42,782 nucleotides of DNA. Source: a virus. Positions 22,560 to 42,782 of the stretch are shown piece after piece (position 1 is the stretch's first letter; every line of letters begins with the position of its first letter). The DNA lies in IMG/VR virus record IMGVR_UViG_3300035670_000458, positions 1 through 42,782 of that record, one strand, 5' to 3'. The notes below the pieces were generated by a model that had not been told where the DNA came from, ran no database searches, and saw only the letters and a program-made list of their open reading frames with translations. The translations under genes were made by a program, and so were the position numbers.

Positions 22560-24203
22560 TTATCTACTTTCAAGTTCTGCTTGCACTATATAACTTGCGG
22601 TGACTATGTTTAAATTATTAGGTTTATACTCTGAAGGATTGATATGTGACGGAACTCTCCAGCCGTTCGCAGCAATTCTGTCTATTAATTTTTTTGCGTC
22701 TTCAAACTGCCATGTTCCGACATGATTAAATCCTTTGCCTTCAAGAAATCTGATTTGTTTTGGAGTTGTTAAACCTTCAATTCTTCTTTTGTCAAGTCTT
22801 TCGAGTAATTTTACTGCTTTTCCGGCATTATCTATTTCGTCCGGGAAAATTCCGTATTTCTCAAGAGTTGTTCTTTGATTTTCAGTAGCAGGAGCCATTT
22901 CCCAACCAAAACTCGGGATATAGTCTACCAAATCTTCTGATTGGATTGACATTTCAAACTGCAGAGGATCGACTAATTTTCTTTTTCGGCTTTTCATTTC
23001 GGATAGCTTTTTAGCAAGAGCTTCTTCTCTTTCTGATATTACATCTTTAGTAGCTTTTGCTTCCGCTTGCTCTAAATCAATAGGACAGGCTGCATTATTT
23101 ATATTTTCTGTCATTTTTTTTGCCACTTCCTGATTTTCACAAATCAAATGAGCCGGTCGGCATAATTCATGCTTTTCAGTATTCCAGAGGAAGTCTAATA
23201 ACAATAAATGGTCCTTTCCGGGATGTAATCGCGTTCCACGCCCTACCATTTGCGAATAAAGAGCACGTGATTTTGTTGCCCTTAATACCACGATACAATC
23301 AACAGACGGGCAATCCCATCCCTCAGTCAACAACATTGAATTACACAATACATTATATCTGCCCTTATCAAAGTCTTGAAGAATTTGTGTTCTATCTGCA
23401 CTGTCACCGTTTACTTCAGCAGCTTTAAACCCTTTTCTTTCTAAAATGTCTCTAAACTTTTGACTGGTTTTAACAAGCGGTAAAAAAACAACTGTTTTTC
23501 TATCTTTACATATGTTTGCCATTTCATCTGCTATTTGATATAAATAAGGGTCTAATGCTGTACCTAAGTCTCCTACTTTATAGTCGCCAGCCTGAGTTCC
23601 CACCCCTGTTAAGTCAATCTTAAGTGGTATCGTTTGCGCTTTAATTGGAGATAGGTATCCTTCTTTAATTGCTTTTGGTAAAGTATATTCATAGGCTAGA
23701 GATTCAAAGTATTGACCGAGGTTTTTCATATCGGATCGGTCAGGAGTAGCCGTAACCCCCAAAACTTTTGATTCGTTAAAGTGTGATAAAACTTTTTGAT
23801 AACTATCAGAAATGCAATGATGAGCTTCGTCAATTATGATTGAATCAAAGTAATCGTTTGAGAATTGTGAAAGTCGTTTCTCTCTCATAAGAGTTTGTAC
23901 ACTACCGACTACTACCCTGTACCAACTGCCAAGACAAGATTCTCCTGCTTTTTCTATAGCACATCCTAATCCTGTTGATTTTATAAGTTTATCAGCAGCT
24001 TGGTCAAGTAATTCACCTCGGTGAGCAAGTACTAGAACTCGCTCACCAAATCGGACACAATCCTCAATTAATTTACTGAAAACAATTGTTTTACCTAACT
24101 AACCGCACCCTGTCGGAAGTACCAACAGGGTGCGATGAACTCCTTTCTGCCATTCATTTTGAACAGCTTCTTTTGCTTGGATTTGATATGGCCTTAATTC
24201 CAT
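22560..24203 (-). CDS. DEAD/DEAH-box helicase with an in-frame UAG inside the P-loop (recoded or broken)
   Basis: The start is ATG at 24203 behind GGGAGG, two bases after the upstream stop. The frame is a superfamily-2 helicase: Q-motif-like M-E-L-R-P-Y-Q, P-loop, D-E-A-H near residue 125, V-T-A-T-P, and a C-terminal Q-M-V-G-R-G-T-R-L. The P-loop reads P-T-G-C-G, stop, L, G-K-T: nine extra bases split the expected P-T-G-C-G-K-T. The stop is TAG at 24099-24101, flanked by GGT (24102-24104) and GGT (24093-24095). Everything else is intact, so loss is recent or the ribosome skips the insert. Without recoding, the part after the stop could restart only after the Walker A motif. Confidence 0.85.
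24104..24134. other. Perfect 10-bp hairpin abutting the P-loop stop codon
   Basis: CGCACCCTGT and ACAGGGTGCG (mRNA sense) pair perfectly around an 11-base loop; plus-strand arms are 24125-24134 and 24104-24113. The 3' arm ends in the first base of the GGT codon before the TAG. No T-run follows, so it is not a terminator. It is coding sequence in helicase motif I. Confidence 0.85.
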
Positions 24204-36918: not shown

Positions 36919-39900
36919 TCATTTTTTCATTTTCTTCTGTATATACTCTTTGATGATGTATTCCCTTGCTGTTTCATGAGATTTTTTTACGATATCACTT
37001 AAAATTTTAGCCTTAACCTCAAACTCATTATCGGTACCCGACAATTTTTTATACTCATCGGATGCAATAACCTTACCCGCCGTCTCCGTTAATAACTTCC
37101 CGCTAAGCTTCTGATAATTAATATACTGCTGCGCATCAAGCGTTAACGGATACGTAGTCCCCTGATAAGTCCACCGTATAACATCATCAGCAACGGCAGG
37201 CAGCACGTTAACATTATTCGTTTGAGCGAACACCTTCGAGATTTCCGTTTGCACAGGATTTTTTTCAACATCTTTCAGGAATAACGGATTAATCATAACA
37301 TTCACAACATTATTAGCATCGTCATAACGTTTAATTTTATCCCCGTAGACATCGACTTGTACCGGCAATGTTCTGCTAAACCCGGGTAACTTGCTTATGT
37401 ATTGTTTTACTATCTGCTTAACAGGATTCGGATCATACACCTCTCTTACATATTCATCCGATATATCAGATAATTGCCGGATAAATGTCGGTTCAGTTTG
37501 CCCGATTGCACTCCTAAACAATTTCGTTAAAGCAGTATTAACACTACCGTTAGACCCTCCGACAGAAGCTATAATATCAACAGCATTACGCATGAATGAC
37601 AATCTTACAAAAGTATTTCCTGCAGCGTCAAACCCTGCTCCGATGGAAGCTAAAAACCCCGCCTTGTCTTTCGACTTTTTGTAAGCATCAACACCCATAG
37701 CCAGAACTCCACCTATCGGTTGTAAAGAATCAAAACTATACCATTTCCCGCCTATTTTAATCGAATAAGCTTGACTTGTGGCTTTTTCATGCTGCCTGAC
37801 CCGTTCCCGTTTATCCTCTCCACCTGCAGCCAGCCCTAAAGCCGCTAACACACCTCCAAGCAAAGCAATTCCCGTTCCGGTCAAACTCCTTGCAAGCCTG
37901 TCAACAAACACCTTTTGGTCAAACTCGCCCTCAGCGATTTTCTTTATTCTCCTGTTATTACTAAGCTTCCCGAGTTCGGACAAAGCTTTTCCCATGCCGA
38001 CCGGAGTATAATCCAACAACTTGTCAAACACATTAGCCGGAGTTTGAGTAAACGGAACAACTATATCACCGACAATACCCGCAGCATCTTTAATTTTTGT
38101 CAATCTCTTAGCAAGCTCGCTGTTATTCTGAAATACCCTATCCATAGCATACAACTTGGCAAGCATATCGACATCGGCATCAGGCTTATTCAATCCCCTA
38201 ATTTTCATCAATTCCTTAAGCCGCATATTATAAGCAGCTTCAAAAAATGGCCTGTCCCCAAACTTCAGAAAAGTTTTAACGGCATTATCCAAAAAATTTA
38301 AAGTGTCGTTGTCAAATACTCGCCCTTTCCTCAATTCGTATCTTCCGCCCGTAATACTCACAAGCTGATTTTTACCAAGGTCATATCTTTCATTCATGTT
38401 TGCAGTATTAACCAACTGAAATGTCTTCAGGTTTTTCACAATCTCTTTCCAAGACATCTGACGATTAAATTGTTTCTCAAAAGAATACTGCAGGTCCAAA
38501 ACACTTTCTTTAACCCCCGTCTTCAACCCCTCAGCCTGCCACTTAGCTTTTTCAACCGGATTAAACAAAGTAGTCCTTTCGCTCCCCCTTATTTTACTCA
38601 GAAAAGCATCAATCGGAGCTCCAAACAGATCCTTTAAATTTTCGGTTGAATTCAAAATAACGTTCCCTGCAATATTCCGAATATTAGTTTTAGGGTTTAA
38701 TAGCAGCCAAATTCTCTGAAGCCCCTTAATCTTATCCCTAACATTAGCAGGAACCTTATTTGACATGATCAGCTCAATCTTATCCGTAAGCATCCGATAT
38801 AAATAACTGTCCGGTTGTAGCAGATTTCTAGCTTCAACAGCTTTAATAATCGCCTCAATATCTTCATTTTCCAAAACAGGCAAATTATTTTTTTGCTTAA
38901 TAATATCCCTGATAGCCGGGATTGAATAAGCATCAAGATTAATCAATTCCATAACCTTATCAACCATTCGTTTCCTTACCTTAGGACTTGCAGCCTTGAG
39001 CATACCCTTTAATATTCGTTCTCTCGCTAAAGTTGCTTGCTCATCAAATACTTTTTTTGCAATCGTAGCCACCTTTTCAGCATCCGCCTGACTGATATTA
39101 ATCTTATCCTTAAGAGCTGCAATAAAAGCATCCCTCACAAATTCCGTCTTATTTTTCCCAAGTTTGACCAACTCATGTATTCTTATACCTGCAGTTCTTA
39201 TCAAGGTCCTTATCTTCGGGTCCAACTTATCATTAACCCGGTTAGAATAATTCTGATTAAGAAAAATATCCGCATTAACAACCGAGTCAATAAATTTAAC
39301 TGCATTAGCTTCCCTGTCAGCAGCAGAAGCAGGCCGCACCCTATACACCTGCTCCAAATAGTTTTCGGCATATTCTTTTTTCCACGTCTTGAACTTATTA
39401 TCCACATAGTTAGCCAAAACATTAATCTCATCATCCGTAAACTCTTGAAGCTTTGCCTCGGCCTTCAAAAACTCGACAATATTAACTCTTTGCTGTGCCC
39501 CCGTAGCATAATAATTTTTCACCATATCCGAAAGCTTATAATCAAGCTTCTTCATAACCTTCTTAATTGCAATATCCGCAGTTTTTTCGGAAAATGGCGG
39601 CTTAGTCCCCTTACCAAAATACTCTTCCAAAATATCAAGAGCGAAAGTATCATCCGAATAAAATTCCCTAACTATCTTCTTTGCCTCCTGCCAAACCTTA
39701 TCAGACACATCTTTATTTTTTACCGCATCAAGAAACTCTTGGATCTTATCAGGAGGTATCTTTTTAGGAATGTCCTTCTCATCAACTTGTTCCCTAAACT
39801 TAGCATACAATTCATTGACCATCTGCATTACAACATCTTTTTCTTTTGCTTTTGGGCCTTTCAAAGTCTTCTTAATTTTTTCAGCAAGCAGCTCAGCAGG

Positions 39901-42782
39901 ATCGGCTTCTTCATCCTCTTCTACTTCTTCTAAATTTTCGTCAACTTCTTCATCCGTGGCAGCATCGTTGGCTTCAGATTGATTCCCGGTTTTTTTACTC
40001 GAAGTCTTTCTTTTTTTCTTTTCTCTATTTTCTTGAGTCTCTTCTTCCTTCTTAATCTCATCAACCGTCTCATCGGCCGCCTTTTTATCGGTTTCCTCAA
40101 GCACCTTCTCGACGACTTTAGCCTCATTGTCGATTTCTTCAATCATCTTTGGATGAGCTTTCTTAGTTTCCTCTTCAACATCATTAACAATTTTTTGAGC
40201 CTCAATAATAATCTGCTCAGGCGACCTCGAATACTTTGCTAAAGCTTGAATAGCTCTTCCCATGTCAGTAAAATTATCCCTTCGAATTATTGATGTCCAT
40301 TCAATCATTTTAGAATAATCGCCTGTTTTCCTGCCTTCCTGCTTATAAACTTCCAGTATACCCATAGCAACGTCAGTATCGACGCCCGTTTTAATACCAT
40401 TTTTCCTGATATTCTCAACTTCCCCGTCAAAATCTTTAGAAAGTCTTTTTACAGCTTCCGTATAGCTTTTCTCTTCCGAAACCCTGTCATACACATAATC
40501 TTCGGCATTAAACATTTTCTTTTCTTCATCCGTCAAATCCTTATGATTCTGCAAAGTATTCTCATAAAACTTAGATATAGCCTTAAGCCTGTTAAGTTTC
40601 TTCTCAGCCTCCGCAAAAAGCTGCAGATTGACCTTTATACCTTTACGCTTTTTATCCCTCATAAAAGACACCATATCCTCCAGCTCATCAATGGTGTTTG
40701 GCAGTTGATCACGACTTTTAATATTAGTAAATTTTGTTATATTGGAGTAAAATTTTTGAGCAACGAGCCTAAATTTATTTACTGTATCATCGTCTAACAC
40801 TTGATTTATTTCTATTGAATTATCAAAGTTTTTAATAGCAAGCATCATATTTGCAAACTCATTTGCTAATAACTCATCAACAACCGTAATGTCTGTTTCT
40901 TTAAGATATACTTTATAATCTTCATCTTCAAACGATTTTACAAAATCATCTTTAGCCTTTAAAAACTCGGGAGTTTTGATAAAATCATTATAAAAATAAT
41001 CAAAGGTATCAAAAAACAATTCCTTATTTGTTTTTCTCAAATAATGGAATGTTTCATGGTGATAAGCTGTGGTTTGGCCGTATTCAGTTTTATTCCCGAT
41101 AAATATTTCAAAAGGAGCTTCCGAAGATGTCAAAGCTGAAATATTAAAGCCTGTATTGTCAAAAAAGTTTACAGGAGCTCCGACAGTTCTTTCCGAATCT
41201 TCTCTAATTCTTCTTTCGTCGACCGTTCTCTCATCTCTTGTAGAGATTTTTCTAATTGCGGCTTCTTCTTCATAAGCTCTTCGTTTGAAAATTTCCTTTT
41301 TGTTTCGGCTGATTCTTCCGGCGTTTGTGGTCTCAAGCCCTGATTCTTGAATAACATTTTCATTCACCTCACCACTCGAAGTTTTTTCAACATTACTATT
41401 ATCGGACAAATTACCGGCTTTTTCAATGGCATTATTTGACTTATCATAAATAATCGAAACCTTAACATCCGTAGCCTGAGATTTACCTCCTATTTTTTCA
41501 ACTTTCAGTATTCTCGTAACATCATTAATTGAAGATGGTGTTTTGGTCTTATAAAAACTTTTGGTCCTGTCAGTGCCTTCTTCGACTGTTCTTTCAAAAG
41601 GATTCTCAGGATTATTTTGTACTTCGATGATATACCCGACATCAGATTTACTTTTAAACAGATAAGTTTTAGCTATTTCACGGCCAAACCATGCCGGCAT
41701 TTTACTTTTTGTTTTTACGACTCCCGAATCAAATATATCTTGGATAGCAGCAAAATCTTTCACGGCTCTGTAATAGTGGCCATCCTTTTTTTCGCCCAAT
41801 TGGTCCATAACAGGGCTATAACTCGAAGACAGATTAATCGTTTTTGTATAGCTTTTACCTTCAGTTTGGGCCTTATTTATTTGAGATTCAGGTGTATTTT
41901 GCGTTTGAGCAAGTTGGCCTTCTTGTACTTGAGACAAATTTAAAGGCGATTCTGTAACAAAATTACCTATTTTATTAATCTCATTTTGATTATTGCTAAC
42001 AATATTCCCCGTTTCAGATAATGCAGATTCATTTGGCACAGTGTTTACAATCATATTCCCAACATCACGAAATTGACTTATATCCTGCATTTGCGGTTGT
42101 TGTGGTTGTATTGTTTGTTGTTCTTGTTGTGTTTGCAACGGTGATTCCGTAATAACTTTAGCCATCCCGCTTTTACCCTGCAAAGCTTCTTTATACGGGA
42201 AAACATTACTTAAACTATTTTCTAATTCCATAACATTTAAGGGTGACTCCTGAATACCCCCGCTAATATTTTCTTGTGCATTCCCCAATATACTTTCCTG
42301 AATACCCCCCTGCTGTTGCTCTTGATTATTAACCTTAGGTATCTCATTTTTTAAATTTTTCAGCAACTCATTATACTGCCCGAAAGTAACTGATTCAGGG
42401 TTTTGAGCATATTCCAATGCCAATTGAAAAGACTCGGTTTGTTCCGGCATATTCAACCCGACTTTAAGGTCCTCATATAAATTATTTTCCATTTCCTGCT
42501 GAACTTGCTTCGATGCCTCATATTGTGAAGGTAATCCCGCTCCCCCCATAGCGACACCCGCCAAACCTCCGACTAATCCGCTGTAAAGAATTTGTTTTGG
42601 GTCGATAACGCCGCCTTCTCCAAACCATTTCCGATTTGTGTCAGCAATAAGCTTATCTGCTAATCCTGAAATCGGCTCCATAAGCATTTCTTCAAGAGCT
42701 TCCTGCCCGCCCACATTCAAAAGATTTTTTAACATATTCCCGATATTTTTTTTCCCCGCCAAGGTAAAAGTTTTAATAATAT
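36919..42782 (-). CDS. Giant polyvalent virion protein, main part, with zincin-like HExxH motif (runs off window end)
   Basis: The frame is open from 42782 to the stop at 36919, about 1,953 codons. TTG at 42762 is probably internal; 1-849 supplies the N-terminus. Numbering from 42762: Gln-rich linker with four E-S-P/I-L motifs (about 155-280); a small alpha/beta domain opening Y-Y-R-A-V (about 325-430), toxin- or ADP-ribosyltransferase-like; H-E-T-F-H at 569-573, a zincin-type metallopeptidase motif; N-L-Q-L-F-A-E at 712-718; acidic-basic linker (about 870-975); helical regions; and a C-terminal module (about 1340-1947) like the LPD38-type domains of phage polyvalent proteins, with a hydrophobic helix near 1625. 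Inferred to be packaged and ejected with DNA. Confidence 0.85.
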   Translation of the reverse strand, partial: IIKTFTLAGKKNIGNMLKNLLNVGGQEALEEMLMEPISGLADKLIADTNRKWFGEGGVIDPKQILYSGLVGGLAGVAMGGAGLPSQYEASKQVQQEMENNLYEDLKVGLNMPEQTESFQLALEYAQNPESVTFGQYNELLKNLKNEIPKVNNQEQQQGGIQESILGNAQENISGGIQESPLNVMELENSLSNVFPYKEALQGKSGMAKVITESPLQTQQEQQTIQPQQPQMQDISQFRDVGNMIVNTVPNESALSETGNIVSNNQNEINKIGNFVTESPLNLSQVQEGQLAQTQNTPESQINKAQTEGKSYTKTINLSSSYSPVMDQLGEKKDGHYYRAVKDFAAIQDIFDSGVVKTKSKMPAWFGREIAKTYLFKSKSDVGYIIEVQNNPENPFERTVEEGTDRTKSFYKTKTPSSINDVTRILKVEKIGGKSQATDVKVSIIYDKSNNAIEKAGNLSDNSNVEKTSSGEVNENVIQESGLETTNAGRISRNKKEIFKRRAYEEEAAIRKISTRDERTVDERRIREDSERTVGAPVNFFDNTGFNISALTSSEAPFEIFIGNKTEYGQTTAYHHETFHYLRKTNKELFFDTFDYFYNDFIKTPEFLKAKDDFVKSFEDEDYKVYLKETDITVVDELLANEFANMMLAIKNFDNSIEINQVLDDDTVNKFRLVAQKFYSNITKFTNIKSRDQLPNTIDELEDMVSFMRDKKRKGIKVNLQLFAEAEKKLNRLKAISKFYENTLQNHKDLTDEEKKMFNAEDYVYDRVSEEKSYTEAVKRLSKDFDGEVENIRKNGIKTGVDTDVAMGILEVYKQEGRKTGDYSKMIEWTSIIRRDNFTDMGRAIQALAKYSRSPEQIIIEAQKIVNDVEEETKKAHPKMIEEIDNEAKVVEKVLEETDKKAADETVDEIKKEEETQENREKKKRKTSSKKTGNQSEANDAATDEEVDENLEEVEEDEEADPAELLAEKIKKTLKGPKAKEKDVVMQMVNELYAKFREQVDEKDIPKKIPPDKIQEFLDAVKNKDVSDKVWQEAKKIVREFYSDDTFALDILEEYFGKGTKPPFSEKTADIAIKKVMKKLDYKLSDMVKNYYATGAQQRVNIVEFLKAEAKLQEFTDDEINVLANYVDNKFKTWKKEYAENYLEQVYRVRPASAADREANAVKFIDSVVNADIFLNQNYSNRVNDKLDPKIRTLIRTAGIRIHELVKLGKNKTEFVRDAFIAALKDKINISQADAEKVATIAKKVFDEQATLARERILKGMLKAASPKVRKRMVDKVMELINLDAYSIPAIRDIIKQKNNLPVLENEDIEAIIKAVEARNLLQPDSYLYRMLTDKIELIMSNKVPANVRDKIKGLQRIWLLLNPKTNIRNIAGNVILNSTENLKDLFGAPIDAFLSKIRGSERTTLFNPVEKAKWQAEGLKTGVKESVLDLQYSFEKQFNRQMSWKEIVKNLKTFQLVNTANMNERYDLGKNQLVSITGGRYELRKGRVFDNDTLNFLDNAVKTFLKFGDRPFFEAAYNMRLKELMKIRGLNKPDADVDMLAKLYAMDRVFQNNSELAKRLTKIKDAAGIVGDIVVPFTQTPANVFDKLLDYTPVGMGKALSELGKLSNNRRIKKIAEGEFDQKVFVDRLARSLTGTGIALLGGVLAALGLAAGGEDKRERVRQHEKATSQAYSIKIGGKWYSFDSLQPIGGVLAMGVDAYKKSKDKAGFLASIGAGFDAAGNTFVRLSFMRNAVDIIASVGGSNGSVNTALTKLFRSAIGQTEPTFIRQLSDISDEYVREVYDPNPVKQIVKQYISKLPGFSRTLPVQVDVYGDKIKRYDDANNVVNVMINPLFLKDVEKNPVQTEISKVFAQTNNVNVLPAVADDVIRWTYQGTTYPLTLDAQQYINYQKLSGKLLTETAGKVIASDEYKKLSGTDNEFEVKAKILSDIVKKSHETAREYIIKEYIQKKMKK

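Follow-up and report, generated by a model that had tools for sequence, protein, structure and literature searches.

Recurrent stop-containing inserts beside a hairpin in the P-loop codons of phage helicases: a candidate variant of programmed bypassing

The helicase gene of a temperate tailed phage is interrupted in its P-loop codons by a nine-base insert that opens with an in-frame TAG, and at least five other distinct phage helicases (L145, L146, L149, L150 and L151) carry different inserts at exactly the same site. Judged from sequence, these helicase junctions represent a candidate variant of programmed bypassing, to which an insertion scar is a serious rival; a new type of translational bypass (stop-hop) in the helicase P-loop, assisted by the hairpin, lies, in our judgement, just on the probable side. 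The window, i.e. the whole stretch of 42,782 nt that was analysed, is a virus record with genes for a serine integrase, a cI-like repressor, a Rha/Ant-type regulator, a terminase, a portal and a major head protein, and its replication module is ordered AAA-Sak4-DUF-helicase-primase-RusA. At the end of the record (36919-42762, minus strand) lies a 1947-aa open frame without a PHROG match.

On the minus strand, motif I of the window helicase is encoded as PTGCG, then TAG TTA GGT, then KT (Table 1), which confirms the reading of the first-pass annotation; the remainder of the 547-codon frame is likewise intact, with a single internal TAG and no other stop or frameshift. Each of the three frames meets a stop within about 12 nt of the insert, so that no simple frameshift would rescue the gene, and the next in-frame start, an ATG at 23888, lies past motif I. 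Reassignment of TAG, as in a TAG-recoded phage, was rejected because TAG is an ordinary stop at the end of 7 of the 41 window genes and the window holds no tRNA gene. None of 183 near-invariant columns deviates in one alignment of the window helicase and one of 160 does in a second; the further lesions or lost conserved residues by which a pseudogene is recognised were not found in it.

Table 1. Coordinates of the window helicase features and junctions of the six interrupted helicases
Feature	Position	Strand	Sequence or description	Insert (nt)	Open codons downstream
Helicase gene	ATG at 24203, frame end 22560	-	547 codons and stop, one internal TAG		
First open frame	24102..24203	-	34-codon N-terminus MELRPYQIQAKEAVQNEWQKGVHRTLLVLPTGCG; last codon is the take-off Gly GGT		
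Weaker upstream stem	24149..24167	-	GCTGTTCA-AAA-TGAATGGC, inside the shared GAATGGCAGAAAGG stretch		
Hairpin	24104..24134	-	CGCACCCTGTTGG-TACTT-CCGACAGGGTGCG; 13 pairs, one U.G; 3' arm ends on first base of take-off codon		
Proposed take-off codon	24102..24104	-	GGT (Gly)		
Insert	24093..24101	-	TAG TTA GGT, missing from 111 ordinary homologues	+9	
In-frame stop	24101-24099	-	TAG, adjoining the take-off codon		
TTA of insert	24098-24096	-	TTA		
Proposed landing codon	24093..24095	-	GGT, same as take-off codon; adjoins P-loop Lys-Thr		
Codon after landing codon	24092-24090	-	AAA (Lys)		
Second open frame	22560..24092	-	KTIVFSKLIED..., 510 codons; remaining SF2 (ResIII/Helicase_C) helicase, no further lesion		
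Window junction			TGC GGT / TAGTTA GGT / AAA ACA	+9	510
L145 junction			TGC GGG / TA GGG / AAA ACC	+5	500
L146 junction			GGC / TAAAA GGC / AAA ACT	+8	365 (end of piece)
L149 junction			GGC / TAACC GAT / AAA ACC	+8	503
L150 junction			GGA / TAAA AGA / AAA ACG	+7	392 (contig end)
L151 (= L158) junction			GGT / TA GGT / AAA ACC	+5	516

The comparison with ordinary homologues covered 114 related loci (80 viral and 34 bacterial contigs). Motif I was present in 111 of them and reads PTGxGKT or a close variant every time, with neither insert nor stop in any. Concomitantly, 113 homologous frames run through the position of the window's stop, and the real replication genes show no other lesion, the other apparent stops in this comparison being spurious antisense or overlapping ORFs. 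Taken alone, the absence of the insert from all 111 homologues suggests a private defect in the window. An exact search for the window junction, or for an ungapped near-copy, gave no match, and a scan for PTGxG-stop-xG-KT with an in-frame nine-base insert gave no TAG match; its five TAA or TGA matches were due to chance, their frames not being helicases.

Looser patterns brought out the other cases. A scan of viral contigs for the hairpin upstream of the stop, with free wobble positions and nothing required after it, returned six helicases, of which L145, L146, L149 and L150 are interrupted while L147 (identical to L009) and L148 are not. A second scan left out the 5' arm of the hairpin and required only PTGCG, UAR and AAAAC further on; the same four interrupted genes came back, together with L151 (= L158), and all interrupted helicases carry the hairpin. 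A third one, in which the Cys position was left free and either Lys codon was accepted, found no additional interrupted helicase and none without the hairpin. According to the first-pass annotation, homologues lacking the nine bases, with this genome the sole exception, would refute bypassing. The ordinary homologues do lack them (0 of 111), but insert and hairpin recur in five other helicases, so that the window is not the sole exception and the proposed refutation fails in its second half.

The helicase of L151 is 32% identical to that of the window, and the fetched part of its phage shares no other replication gene with it; where interrupted helicases occur, the neighbouring replication genes of their phages are intact. 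On contig 3300044987 (L175, 11544-13061, minus strand), a helicase about 32% identical to that of the window, in a phage that lacks the other replication genes, carries a 5-nt insert and the same hairpin DNA of 31 nt (G015:43101-43131). We also observed that the ~60 nt before the site are near-identical in L148 (1970-2001) and L149 (5117-5148), with an insert in L149 and none in L148. Matches from scans with longer gaps (L152-L157 and L159-L162) were chance matches and not helicases. Neither the hairpin nor an interrupted helicase was found in 391 genomes of the Alkalibaculum class, and cultured phages and plasmids gave no interrupted case, with one partial, uninterrupted match in phage Javan173. 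An assembly or sequencing artefact at a strong hairpin would agree with the fact that every case is an environmental virus contig, with none among the cultured phages or the 391 class genomes; we consider it very improbable given six distinct sequences from different data sets, inserts that are patterned (UAR after Gly, GGN repeat) and an identical L151 sequence in two records.

The junctions share a common arrangement. An in-frame UAR directly follows a GGN codon in all six interrupted genes, a feature that was no part of the scan pattern by which L145, L146, L149 and L150 were first found, and the codon before KT equals the take-off Gly codon in four of the six, being unmatched in L149 (GAT) and L150 (AGA). 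Of the six inserts, five have lengths not divisible by three, yet 365-516 codons remain open downstream with helicase motifs present. Stop readthrough or -1 frameshifting, giving a product that keeps extra P-loop residues, might be envisaged from the window insert, which is a multiple of three, and from the -1 frame, which is open across the insert in four other genes; the products would be PTGCG-X-LGKT in the window (still GxxxxGKT) and PTGCG-V/L-GKT by -1 in L145 and L151. This is unlikely, as L150 would need +1 and the whole set three different frames, no obvious slippery site is present, and one to three residues would be added within motif I, with the LTDKT of L149 losing the last glycine of the loop. 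Besides, -1 frameshifting would not be expected to be stimulated by a hairpin that lies upstream of the site.

The hairpin itself is the most constant element. The first-pass annotation had placed its 3' end on the first base of the take-off codon, which proved correct, and the perfect 10-bp core that it described extends to 13 pairs, i.e. ten unbroken Watson-Crick pairs, one U.G and two G-C. The predicted energy in the window is -25 to -28 kcal/mol (z -5.35 for a 101-nt region), and predicted folds leave the insert and the stop unpaired. A coincidence of codons, first suggested by an ungapped near-copy in L009, was ruled out by simulation: of 20,000 synonymous recodings of HRTLLVLPTGCG made with the codon usage of the window phage, the most stable reached -25.7, against -27.7 observed. 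All six interrupted genes have 12-13 hairpin pairs, and the two pairs that vary among them are always U-A or U.G, whereas the ungapped L009 has a T-T mismatch there; a covariation test was uninformative, the pairs hardly varying. An Rfam search gave no match. A repeated or copied origin of GTTAGTTAG in the window was rejected, a search for a second copy within the window finding the single one only.

Further upstream, the weaker stem listed in Table 1 is a possible second element, on weak evidence. The block from -69 to -40, in which GAATGGCAGAAAGG lies, shows a weak enrichment, its value being reached by 91 of 5000 random sets. The GAATGGCAGAAAGG stretch (window 24149-24170) also occurs in L145, L146 and L148, with one mismatch in L149, and in no further one of the 112 ungapped genes; a part of the stretch may base-pair with an upstream GCTATTC.

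All 6 interrupted genes have the hairpin, against 2 of 113 uninterrupted ones (p about 8e-9); L145, L146, L149 and L150 were first found via the hairpin, and they and L151 were also found by the gap pattern without the 5' arm. Synonymous identity in the hairpin codons is 0.74 among five interrupted genes versus 0.26 among ungapped ones, with 0 of 5000 random sets as high, a figure that is partly a product of the search. Among the hairpin carriers of the first scan, with the window left out, four of six are interrupted, the reverse of what is expected for rare recent knock-outs of a normal gene. The matching take-off and landing codons, the UAR after the take-off codon and the stable hairpin recur as bypassing predicts. 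Several observations count against it: the landing codons of L149 and L150 are unmatched, the interrupted genes are scattered on the tree and form no clade, the helicases evolve somewhat faster than the primases, L148 is an uninterrupted gene with a perfect hairpin, and neither a KKYK peptide like that of gene 60 nor a stem-loop enclosing take-off codon and stop is present. The scattering on the tree implies that the element was gained repeatedly or has moved. We tentatively propose, a little short of thinking it probable, a mobile or convergently evolved mini bypass element, made of a ~31-nt hairpin in the P-loop codons and a 5-9 nt insert (UAR and usually a copy of the Gly codon), which would sit in the helicases of unrelated phages and be skipped by hairpin-driven tRNA hopping.

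The main rival is a recurrent insertion scar, in which the P-loop hairpin is a hotspot where GGN, TA... and GGN are left behind, by a nuclease cut with a 3-nt stagger or as the footprint of a lost mobile element, the gene being dead and each case recent. The GGN-TA...-GGN pattern also fits an insertion with a 3-bp duplication. Six inserts at one site, four of them with an exact GGN repeat and scattered on the tree, are consistent with such a scar, as are the two unmatched repeats, which are expected of a scar that drifts, the ordinary homologues without insert and the mildly raised helicase pN. The ratio of helicase to primase pN is 0.69 in pairs without an interrupted gene, 0.80 when one member is interrupted and 0.92 when both are, and a separate comparison gave a similar picture. 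Against the primase, non-synonymous change is raised in L173, L172, L177 and the window (22560-24092); conserved columns are mostly kept in the interrupted helicases. This mild excess is compatible with some loss of constraint, and the pattern with either a functional gene whose product is made at a lower level or a very recent inactivation each time. The scar leaves unexplained, however, why an improbable hairpin persists in the codons of unrelated helicases, why a UAR comes straight after Gly every time, why more of the hairpin-bearing genes are interrupted than intact, and why six long downstream frames hold no second lesion. By a rough estimate, had the excess of amino-acid changes accumulated in dead genes, several nonsense codons would be expected in four interrupted helicases, and none is seen. 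We rate the scar as the less probable explanation, at about one chance in three, and as one to be taken seriously.

Under the bypass reading, a ribosome would synthesise MELR...PTGCG and halt when peptidyl-tRNA-Gly sits on GGT and the A site contains UAG. Just behind the P site lies the 3' arm of the 13-bp hairpin, which would re-form and pull the mRNA; the arm would be covered by the ribosome at take-off, so that folding would presumably occur only as the ribosome slides forward. The tRNA would then quit GGT and re-pair with the next GGT 9 nt downstream, decoding would restart at AAA ACA, and the exact PTGCGKT loop would result, while landing in L149 and L150 would require a one- or two-base mismatch. 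The hop, its efficiency and the role of the hairpin are what we infer here. A possible benefit would be regulation, or a defence of the conserved P-loop site against a homing nuclease. For T4 gene 60, the origin that has been proposed for the gap is linked to such a nuclease. No HNH homing nuclease was found in the window; the L149 phage has an HNH domain (G012:C1:38203-38340; L178) about 7 kb from its interrupted helicase.

The junction had first been likened to T4 gene 60, in which a 50-nt gap lies between GGA followed by UAG and a second GGA, with a 5' stem-loop (PMC11194080). The likeness stands for a Gly take-off codon followed by UAG, an identical landing codon, an upstream RNA hairpin and a location in a phage DNA-metabolism gene, features that recur across the set, with UAR as the stop and the codon match in four of six. 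It is a resemblance of logic only: the helicase inserts are 5-9 nt long, and their hairpin lies wholly 5' of the stop, with no take-off stem-loop over it, while in gene 60 the take-off codon and the stop are within the stem-loop and a KKYK nascent-peptide signal is required (PMC11194080); no KKYK was found in the 34-aa leader of the window. Stop-hops on synthetic constructs (Weiss et al. 1987, cited in PMC5009743) decode 9 nt as one residue, according to that 2016 review, which knows of no natural in-frame stop-hop; in the helicases a conserved hairpin accompanies a span of 12 nt for the window and of 8-11 nt for the other genes. The same review describes bypassed inserts at 81 sites in the mitochondria of Magnusiomyces capitatus, said to be independent of mRNA context (PMC5009743). 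These are likewise short inserts in conserved genes, skipped in translation there and proposed to be skipped here, but the helicases have one site tied to one hairpin. A likely bypass in the terminase of Streptomyces phage Hau3, also a short coding gap in a phage, is linked to UUA, and the accessible part of the review describes for it no UAR or hairpin of the helicase kind (PMC5009743).

No report of bypassing in a phage helicase was found in the open-licence literature. Natural programmed bypassing in bacteria and phages is, to our knowledge, almost confined to one proven case, T4 gene 60. Should bypassing be refuted, an ATPase motif that is widely conserved would be left with an unexplained insertion hotspot at a hairpin. 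If it is true, the helicase junctions would be a case of programmed bypassing in nature across a very short gap, and would make up a phage family of bypass elements with several members. From its six natural variants, with 5-9 nt inserts, different Gly codons and a hairpin in common, the necessary parts could be recognised, in elements small enough for one plasmid reporter.
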